A stretch of 64,000 nt of DNA from Variimorphobacter saccharofermentans (GTDB taxonomy: Bacteria; Bacillota; Clostridia; Lachnospirales; Lachnospiraceae): contig NZ_JACEGA010000001.1 of NCBI RefSeq assembly GCF_014174405.1, positions 3,016,501-3,080,500 on the forward strand, in the 5' to 3' direction. The notes under the pieces are model-generated. The model was not told the DNA's origin, did no database searches, and saw only the letters and a list, made by a program, of their open reading frames with translations. Below are positions 38,079 through 39,730 of the stretch, in pieces; positions within the stretch are counted from its first letter, which is position 1; every line of letters begins with the position of its first letter. A program made the position numbers and the translations under genes.

Positions 38079-38172
38079 ATTCTATCTTATATATAGTTTC
38101 TTGTCAATATAAAATGTGTGTACTTGACATTTTATAACAGCTAGTATATATTCTAATTAGATATCTAATTAG
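38079..38172. promoter_or_regulatory. Divergent promoters with a perfect 20-bp MarR-type operator
   Basis: Plus strand: TTGACA at 38124-38129, a 17-base spacer, TATATT at 38147-38152, then directly the palindrome CTAATTAGATATCTAATTAG (38153-38172), which covers the expected start of the marR-type transcript. Minus strand, for the CBM9-esterase: TTGACA (complement of 38102-38107), 17 bases, TAGAAT (complement of 38079-38084). A second dyad, ATAAAATGT/ACATTTTAT (38109-38117 with 38127-38135), lies between the two promoters. Confidence 0.85.
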
Positions 38173-38191
38173 TAAATCAGGGGAGAGTGTC

Positions 38192-38626
38192 ATGGATCAT
38201 AATACGAAGCATTTACACGAGGCTTTAATTGGTTGCTATACCGCTCACAAAAGATATTGCGTTCAGCAGTTTCAGAAGTTAAACCTAACCACAGGACAGC
38301 CAAAGGTCTTGTACATATTACTGAATAATGAAGGTTATCTTCAGAAAGAGTTAGCTCAACGATGTCATGTTGAACCAGCTACTATGACCTCTCTTCTTAA
38401 CAATATGATAAAAAAGGGACTGATTTATAAGAATATAGTATATGTCTCTGGTGGGAAACGTGCGTATGCCATTTATTTAACCAAGGATGGATATGACATG
38501 GCTCTTAAAATAAAGAAAATCATTGAAGAGGTAGAAGAAATCAGTTACCAAGACTTCAATGATAAGGATAAACAGTTATTGATGGATCTATTGAATCGGA
38601 TCCAGACGAACCTGGAAAAAAAATAA
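38192..38626 (+). CDS. MarR-family regulator (CinR-like) of the esterase genes
   Basis: 144 residues with the MarR winged-helix core (about 35-105, including LAQRCHVEPATMTSLLNNMIKKGLIYK and the wing VSGGKRAYAIYLT; longer run split here). A GGGGAGAG site precedes the ATG. It sits 15 bases upstream of an esterase lipoprotein gene, and its own promoter ends in a perfect palindrome, as expected for autoregulation. In Butyrivibrio fibrisolvens the MarR-type CinR represses an adjacent cinnamoyl-ester hydrolase gene (cinB). The gene order and enzyme type here are the same, so hydroxycinnamate or an ester of it is the likely signal (inference). Confidence 0.85.
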   Translation: MDHNTKHLHEALIGCYTAHKRYCVQQFQKLNLTTGQPKVLYILLNNEGYLQKELAQRCHVEPATMTSLLNNMIKKGLIYKNIVYVSGGKRAYAIYLTKDGYDMALKIKKIIEEVEEISYQDFNDKDKQLLMDLLNRIQTNLEKK

Positions 38627-38641
38627 AGGAGTTATCATAAT

Positions 38642-39730
38642 ATGAAAGTGTTATTTTTATTATTGCAGATTTCGTTCCTACTACTACTTACCTCATGTTC
38701 CGGCAAAGCTACGGAACCCTCCTCGAAACCCTCCACTAATGACAATGATCAGTCTACAGAGCAAGAGGAAGCTTCTCAGAAGGAAGCAAATACAGACAGT
38801 GTAGTCACGAAAGAACCAATAACTGAGCAGACCTCCAGTAAAACTTCAACAGAAACCACTTCCAATGACGATGTACAAAGGGCATTCCCCGTAGTCGATG
38901 AAATTCCTGCTGAGTATCTTACGAAAAGAACCGATCATAGTGGCTCTATAGAAACAGTCACATATCAGACAAAGGACTACTTTGGTGACGGTTCCGAGAT
39001 TACGAAGAAAGCATATGTATATCTTCCATATAACTATGATGAAGCCAAGCAGTATAATGTTTTATATCTTATGCATGGTATCGGCGGCAGTGAAGATGAA
39101 TGGGGCATGAATAATGATTTGTCCCTTGTTAAAATCATGATGGATAAATTAATTTATAACGGTGATATTGAGCCCTTTATCGTTGTAACTCCAAACGGAC
39201 GCTCCTGCGCTGATTTTGCCAATACTTCCGCGGATTATAACTCCTTCTACATCTTTGGCAAGGAATTGCGAAATGACTTAATCCCTTACATAGAAAGCAA
39301 GTATTCAACCTTTACTGACTTTAAGAAAGATAACTACTATCTGGCAGAAACCCGTGATCACCGCGCAATGGCAGGTCTTTCCATGGGCGGTATGCAGACC
39401 ATTAATATCGGAATGTGTGAGAACCTTGATATTATCAGCTACTTTGGCGCTTTTTCCGCTTGTCCCACCACGAACACCTCTACTCAAATTGCGGATAAAC
39501 TGAAAGAGTTTCCAGACGAAACGATCCATTTCTTTTATAACATATGCGGTACGGAAGACAATGTTGCTATTTCCAGTGCATCCGCTGCTGTTTCTTCCAT
39601 CACGGATTTGACGGATAAACTGGATGACAGTAAGAATTTTATCTGGCAAGAAGTTAGCGGCGGCCACGATTTCAATGTATGGTATCTGGGCTTCTATAAC
39701 TTTGCCAAAATTGTATTTAATCATAATTAA
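38642..39730 (+). CDS. Feruloyl-esterase-like lipoprotein
   Basis: 362 residues. Lipoprotein signal peptide with lipobox LTSC (Cys19), a Thr/Ser/Glu-rich linker (about 22-85) and an EstD-type esterase domain (about 90-362) with [14 protein letters not shown], nucleophile motif AGLSMGGMQ and terminal [12 protein letters not shown]. Anchored outside the membrane, it would release ferulate or acetate from xylan fragments at the cell surface. It is co-transcribed with the CinR-like gene. Its catalytic domain resembles that of the divergent CBM9-esterase, so the pair appears to be one surface and one other-location form under common control. Confidence 0.87.

Follow-up and report, generated by a model that had tools for sequence, protein, structure and literature searches.

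The locus described here lies within 64,000 nucleotides (nt) of the Variimorphobacter saccharofermentans genome (contig NZ_JACEGA010000001.1, positions 3,016,501 to 3,080,500), the whole of which we refer to as the window. It contains a MarR-family regulator gene (marR), a CE1-type esterase gene immediately behind it encoding a predicted surface lipoprotein, and a second CE1-type esterase gene with a CBM9 domain that is transcribed divergently (Table 1). Between the divergent genes is an exact 20-bp palindrome that is very probably the operator of the MarR protein, and in several relatives the regulator and a hydrolase are joined in a single open frame.

Table 1. Features of the marR region, as positions in the window (aa, amino acids)
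Feature	Position	Strand	Description
CBM9 and CE1 (XynY-like) esterase	36259..37983	-	574 aa, no signal peptide seen; CBM9_1 and Esterase domains
Promoter of divergent CBM9-esterase gene	38107..38079	-	TTGACA-17-TAGAAT, 11/12 consensus; no operator match
Second dyad	38108..38136		TATAAAATGT (38108-38117)-N9-ACATTTTATA (38127-38136), between and over both -35 regions
Promoter of marR-esterase operon	38124..38152	+	TTGACA-17-TATATT, 11/12 consensus; palindrome starts at next base
MarR operator (predicted)	38153..38172		CTAATTAG-ATAT-CTAATTAG, core ATTAGNNNNCTAAT; unique in genome; dyad after marR -10 in orthologues
marR, MarR-family regulator	38192..38626	+	144 aa, PF01047
CE1 feruloyl-esterase-like lipoprotein	38642..39730	+	362 aa, signal ending LTSC; same operon, 15-nt gap behind marR

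The palindrome CTAATTAGATATCTAATTAG is positioned as the original prediction had it, between two outward-facing promoters and directly after the -10 of marR. In a 3-kb scan there are 14 promoter-like sites against 12.5 expected, with both divergent promoters among the three best, and their -35 boxes (38102-38107 on the minus strand and 38124-38129 on the plus strand) are 16 bp apart. The intergenic region is 208 bp long, and first-order Markov simulations produce a perfect palindrome this long or longer in 38 of 20,000 cases. The genome search suggested with the original prediction finds no other place with three or fewer mismatches in the 4.16 Mb of this genome (two for a backward control pattern); with the four centre bases left free there are 11 places, the other 10 all having exactly three mismatches, compared with 81 for the backward control. 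A second perfect 20-bp palindrome, TGGAAAATGATCATTTTCCA, is present elsewhere in the window (14183-14202), so the length of a palindrome is not by itself decisive and it is conservation that decides.

The domain assignments made originally for the three genes (CBM9_1 with Esterase, MarR, and Esterase) are correct. The regulator has a winged-helix MarR domain, scoring 34.6 bits against a cut-off of 24.6 for PF01047 and matching solved MarR/SlyA proteins at E 1e-14; read from the sequence, its frame stops after the last MarR helix and contains no membrane segment. Among solved structures the lipoprotein esterase is nearest to 1jjf, the XynZ feruloyl esterase domain (E 1e-40), and the alignment retains both the nucleophile motif GLSMGG and a terminal GGHDFNVW, the residues of which we take to be catalytic. 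For the CBM9-esterase the best match is 1gkk, the feruloyl esterase domain of XynY (E 4e-83), and its CBM9 resembles those of xylanases. The GxSMG nucleophile motif is kept in both proteins, and in the CBM9-esterase it aligns with the residue altered in 1gkl (titled as an S954A mutant). These matches make a strong case that both enzymes are kin to CE1 feruloyl esterases.

The palindrome is conserved upstream of marR in relatives. Eight other orthologues within the genus (L032-L039; 60-68% identical) all have the dyad upstream with 0-2 mismatches in its 16 arm positions, beginning 0 to 16 nt after the -10 in printed promoters read by eye, and the identical 20-mer occurs at one of the eight same-genus loci (L003). 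A wider sample comprised 80 related loci, of which 69 (L032-L100, with MarR proteins 34-69% identical to that of the window) were analyzed and the 11 lowest (L101-L111) left out. At 48 of the 69 the dyad is present with at most three of 16 arm mismatches in the promoter of the marR-bearing operon, a rule that admits sites as far as 5.5 kb before marR provided that no opposite-strand frame of at least 150 aa intervenes. The exact core ATTAGNNNNCTAAT is within 200 nt of marR at 36 of the 69, against 0.04 expected by shuffling. The loci total 885 kb and contain 63 dyad sites, compared with 1-16 for each of 24 control dyads matched in composition; of 503 upstream regions of other genes, 18 contain a dyad with three or fewer mismatches. 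Of the 63, 43 are no farther than 160 nt from marR. A further 20 lie beyond the immediate marR promoter, and all but one of these (L041:3970) are by eye either at the head of the marR operon or before an adjoining esterase gene. In particular, where marR is distal in its operon (L047, L048, L051, L055, L075, L080, L085, L087, L088, L089, L091 and L094) the site precedes the first gene, and movement of this kind with the operon head is expected of the operator of that regulator. Chance occurrence of the palindrome is rejected by this conservation, and the comparisons indicate that it is very probably the operator of this MarR.

The genes accompanying marR in these relatives are also informative. 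At 43 of the 69 loci there is a CE1-type esterase gene in the same orientation as marR and no more than 2.5 kb before or 3.5 kb after it; 36 of these 43 esterases are 45-72% identical to the window lipoprotein esterase, and at 32 of the 43 the best esterase match begins no more than 340 nt from the end of marR, with four of the 32 fused to it. These arrangements support the assignment of marR and the lipoprotein esterase to one operon. Additional operon members include a type-B carboxylesterase (COesterase) as the third gene of L033, alpha/beta hydrolases with AXE1 similarity (L080, L085 and L089), beta-lactamase-fold hydrolases (L048 and L051), a GH10 xylanase (L046), a CE1-GH10 chain (L067), GH43 (L087) and arabinofuranosidases (L089 and L094); a 429-aa operon protein at L067 has no match in Pfam. 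At L048 (3751-6260) and L051 (687-3114) the operator precedes the genes of the beta-lactamase-fold hydrolases (PF00144, one per locus tested), with marR distal, and these enzymes are perhaps family VIII esterases. The predicted theme of the operons is the stripping of ester side groups and arabinose from xylan, and it is because they encode xylan side-group removal that a hydroxycinnamate or its sugar ester is our guess for the ligand. This MarR lineage occurs in fibre-degrading Lachnospiraceae and Oscillospiraceae, and the combination of CTAATTAG-N4-CTAATTAG with gene content provides a pattern for locating its esterase and arabinoxylan operons.

We consider it likely that the locus constitutes a self-regulated switch, in which MarR represses both its own gene and that of the surface CE1 esterase, and a ligand, most likely of the hydroxycinnamate type, lifts the repression. 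In the marR promoter, a MarR dimer on the palindrome would span about -6 to +14 and block RNA polymerase, repressing marR and the downstream surface esterase. MarR would then be freed from the DNA by a small molecule derived from arabinoxylan, with a hydroxycinnamate or its sugar ester as the likeliest candidate. We infer binding, repression, the ligand and its releasing action from the MarR family, and the fusion of marR and esterase in relatives (described below) counts in favor of this switch. Of the MarR switch as originally predicted, the palindrome as MarR operator and the joining of marR and esterase in one unit hold up, control of the CBM9-esterase does not, and hydroxycinnamate induction of the lipoprotein esterase is plausible.

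Several points weigh against the self-regulated switch. The binding of MarR and its control of expression are predictions from sequence, and the ligand is guessed from the enzymes, such that the sensed signal might be another xylan product or redox state. At 21 of the 69 loci there is no site by the three-mismatch rule, although the exact core persists at eight of these, leaving 13 without site or core; at 26 of the 69 no CE1 gene is found within the scanned range of 2.5 kb upstream and 3.5 kb downstream. A search of the genus recovers this marR at E 1e-25 in only nine of 34 genomes (the window genome included), many of the genomes searched being incomplete. Finally, there are near-copies among the loci (L056/L058, L069/L070 and L072/L074), and the counts are not fully independent.

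The likeness to the CinR-CinB system of Butyrivibrio fibrisolvens (Dalrymple and Swadling 1997), to which the locus was originally compared, consists of a MarR protein beside a cinnamoyl-type esterase gene and is a likeness in logic. The cinR and cinB genes are divergent, with CinB an intracellular enzyme. In contrast, the conserved marR and esterase genes run in the same direction, and the esterase is a predicted surface lipoprotein; the parallel therefore extends to the neighboring CE1-type esterase gene and not to the divergent order. The comparison with CinR (AAB57775.1), which is treated as a MarR homologue in PMC6905112, is one of description. On its own the marR-esterase unit of the window is a further case of a known regulator-esterase arrangement.

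Three other explanations have been considered, of which the first is unlikely and the remaining two more so. The first supposes that the divergent promoters are reciprocal, with polymerases overlapping at about 38104-38127 and competing, and with MarR on the palindrome indirectly favoring the CBM9-esterase promoter. RNA polymerase reaches to about -55, and the close spacing of the two -35 boxes is as this explanation would have it, but the argument is one of geometry alone. Such competition would lead to opposite responses of the two genes, if any.

The second, which we regard as improbable, is that the palindrome is a general SlyA/MarR-type box to which various MarR proteins of the cell could bind. 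Its core, TTAG-N4-CTAA, fits the SlyA consensus TTAGCAAGCTAA as given in PMC5797941, and autoregulators of the SlyA/RovA type share this core as well as a site near their own start codon (PMC5797941). Moreover, ATTAGAATTCTAAT is found upstream of several remote MarR genes (L014, L018 and L028), and a second MarR gene in this genome (G000:C1:975351-975825, 30% identical) has a three-mismatch dyad near its start. However, the full 8-4-8 dyad is longer than the SlyA/RovA core, it tracks this particular marR lineage and shifts with its operons, and 38153-38172 is the sole place in the genome with two or fewer mismatches; nor is any antagonism of H-NS implied.

The third and least probable, which we think very unlikely, is the coordinated control advanced in the original prediction, with one MarR acting from the shared 94-bp region on the lipoprotein esterase and on the divergent CBM9-esterase alike. 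Two good promoters only 16 bp apart at their -35 boxes, and CE1 esterases encoded on both sides, speak for it, but no stretch of the minus-side promoter matches the operator better than chance (6/16 mismatches at best, p about 0.6), the promoters of four related CBM9-esterase genes contain no dyad above chance (p 0.36 to 1.0), and the operator is centred ~90 bp upstream of the minus-side start as judged from the -10, farther out than polymerase usually covers.

The genomic neighborhood of marR in relatives argues in the same direction. At four of the eight same-genus loci the contig starts with marR itself and is uninformative as to a divergent neighbor, and at the four loci able to show one the CBM9-esterase is not seen; the divergent genes there encode a chemotaxis receptor (L034), a GH36 alpha-galactosidase (L038) and a 474-475-aa protein (L032 and L037) that, in the L032 version, has no Pfam match. 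In one relative (G309) the CBM9-esterase orthologue (L117) adjoins a lacI-type gene on contig C11 and marR is on contig C12. By eye the G309 LacI matches the product of the window LacI gene lying beyond marR and the lipoprotein esterase, and the marR-esterase pair thus sits between genes that are direct neighbors elsewhere; insertion in the lineage of the window and loss from the other lineage are both possible. The CBM9-esterase is therefore rejected as a conserved partner of marR.

The window CBM9-esterase also has no export signal that we can see, a further point against joint control, and there is an in-frame stop 10 codons upstream of its ATG. By eye, three of four relatives examined do have a signal, with lipoprotein signals in L117 (71% identical) and L118 (66%) and another signal in L121 (53%, part of a larger protein); none is seen in L119 (67%). 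Because joint control is without support, the CBM9-esterase should leave the model, and it is probably not part of the MarR switch; we regard it as a neighbor and not an established target.

Two further candidate sites were proposed in this region. The sequence CTAATAAAAGTTAG, thought to be a looser operator for the minus side, is present, at 38039-38052 and not 38040-38053, but is rejected as a second operator as it lacks an operator-like score. The best of the 20-mers starting at 38025-38055 scores -2.7 bits (rank 77 in the window) compared with 16.9-29.5 bits for 18 orthologous sites, with the caveat that these 18 were hand-picked from orthologous promoters to make the scoring matrix, and the scores favor them. 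The second dyad, noted originally as overlapping the -35, is real and longer than was described, with 10-nt arms. A perfect dyad with arms of this length arises in 109 of 5,000 simulations (~2%), and the genome contains one exact place and four with two or three mismatches. It could have arisen by chance, and given its different sequence, its simulated frequency and the four weaker places in the genome, a role as second MarR site is unsupported.

In some relatives the regulator and the enzyme are encoded as one protein. Using two protein searches restricted to the MarR part, with Pfam run on four fused loci, we identified 13 clusters in which MarR and a CE1 esterase share an open frame (P0121-P0133, 501-564 aa; loci L045, L050, L063 and L066) and eight in which MarR is joined to GH43 (P0135, P0136 and P0139-P0144, 721-1051 aa; loci L072, L074 and L082), one of which, P0143, comprises MarR, CE1, GH43 and CBM6. 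In all 21 the MarR frame continues to the enzyme without a stop, and the MarR part is followed (in the GH43 forms after a charged extension) by a hydrophobic segment that is preceded by 12 residues including 1-4 Lys/Arg and has a permissive lipobox with Cys at its end. The fusions thus have, in one frame, the DNA-binding domain, hydrophobic segment and outside domain of a transmembrane regulator, the topology being predicted. An AlphaFold2 model of P0121, from an alignment of 13, has a mean predicted local distance difference test score (pLDDT) of 66.8 and a predicted template modelling score (pTM) of 0.51. In it, the last MarR helix runs unbroken into the hydrophobic segment (residues 123-156, pLDDT 65-68 falling to 45 towards its end), beyond which are a disordered linker and then the esterase; Foldseek matches the esterase part of the model to 1jjf and the first part to MarR structures. 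Assembly artefacts are thought an unlikely origin, as the 13 esterase and eight GH43 clusters come from several sources; the fusion frame stays intact in esterase members as little as 52% identical to the first row, and in GH43 members as little as 59% identical.

The operator is retained at most of the fused loci. The core is exact at four of the seven (L045, L050, L063 and L066), where by eye it lies over the -10, and the dyad is kept at the near-identical L072 and L074; neither dyad nor core is found at L082. The DNA before the MarR-GH43 gene of L082 (232-565) resembles by eye an RNase P RNA gene.

A MarR tree of 72 rows, built by a quick method with support only from the Shimodaira-Hasegawa-like approximate likelihood ratio test (SH-aLRT), includes 53 unfused proteins (the window MarR and those of 52 loci at least 43% identical to it) and 19 of the 21 fusion clusters, P0126 and P0128 having been left out. 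All of the fusion rows are in one group of 32 (SH-aLRT 99). The GH43 fusions form one branch (98), which is joined (92) to a branch of 12 unfused rows, and 10 of the 11 esterase fusions form another (97), the eleventh, P0133, having no firm position; one and two origins of fusion cannot be told apart from the tree. At eight of the 12 unfused rows beside the GH43 branch a lipoprotein signal begins 4 nt inside the end of marR, and elsewhere, in most loci having it, the lipoprotein signal-peptide pattern starts 8-113 nt after marR. A progression from gap to 4-nt overlap to fusion is a plausible evolutionary series.

We tentatively propose, as a possibility about which we are more doubtful than confident, that in these relatives repressor and surface hydrolase have merged into a membrane-spanning chain (MarR-CE1, MarR-GH43 and in one case MarR-CE1-GH43), in which the outside enzyme acting on arabinoxylan would signal to the DNA-binding domain directly, or would free a membrane-tailed MarR through lipobox cleavage; the window operon would be the unfused form. 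If uncut, the fusion would be a transmembrane repressor with the enzyme as its outside domain, and if cut at the lipobox it would be a polyprotein, split into a membrane-tailed MarR and a conventional lipoprotein. The enzymes could also be made as separately started lipoproteins, with internal starts adding free esterase; there is a Met near the hydrophobic segment in all 13 esterase fusions, but two of the eight GH43 fusions lack one (these may use GTG or TTG starts). Should the fusions work across the membrane, they would represent a new means of sensing insoluble fibre in a gut bacterium, with the repressor carrying its target enzyme outside.

Membrane-spanning regulators with related layouts are known. 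The RsgI anti-sigma factors of Clostridium thermocellum have, according to PMC12203970, an inside regulator, a single membrane helix and an outside domain that may be a carbohydrate-binding module or a glycoside hydrolase; RsgI binds a sigma factor, whereas the fusions have a DNA-binding MarR inside and a lipobox that may allow cleavage. ToxR and CadC likewise combine DNA-binding and outside domains on one chain (PMC10269533), but the fusions differ in having a MarR fold, in probably being repressors and in having a hydrolase as the outside domain. The ECF52 and ECF53 sigma factors, for which membrane and glycosyl-hydrolase domains are predicted (PMC10766802), would similarly be regulator-hydrolase chains across the membrane, although they are sigma factors and not MarR repressors. 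Open-access literature searches, judged from their listings, found no MarR-hydrolase fusion or membrane-bound MarR, and the word MarR does not occur in the available text of the transmembrane-regulator survey PMC10269533, supplementary tables aside. We would call the fused form a novel variation within this regulator family.

Among the other proteins recovered, P0134 (323 aa) contains DNA-binding families only and is neither form of fusion. P0137 and P0138 have MarR and an Acyl_transf_3 membrane domain in one protein, and are possibly another type of membrane-bound MarR.
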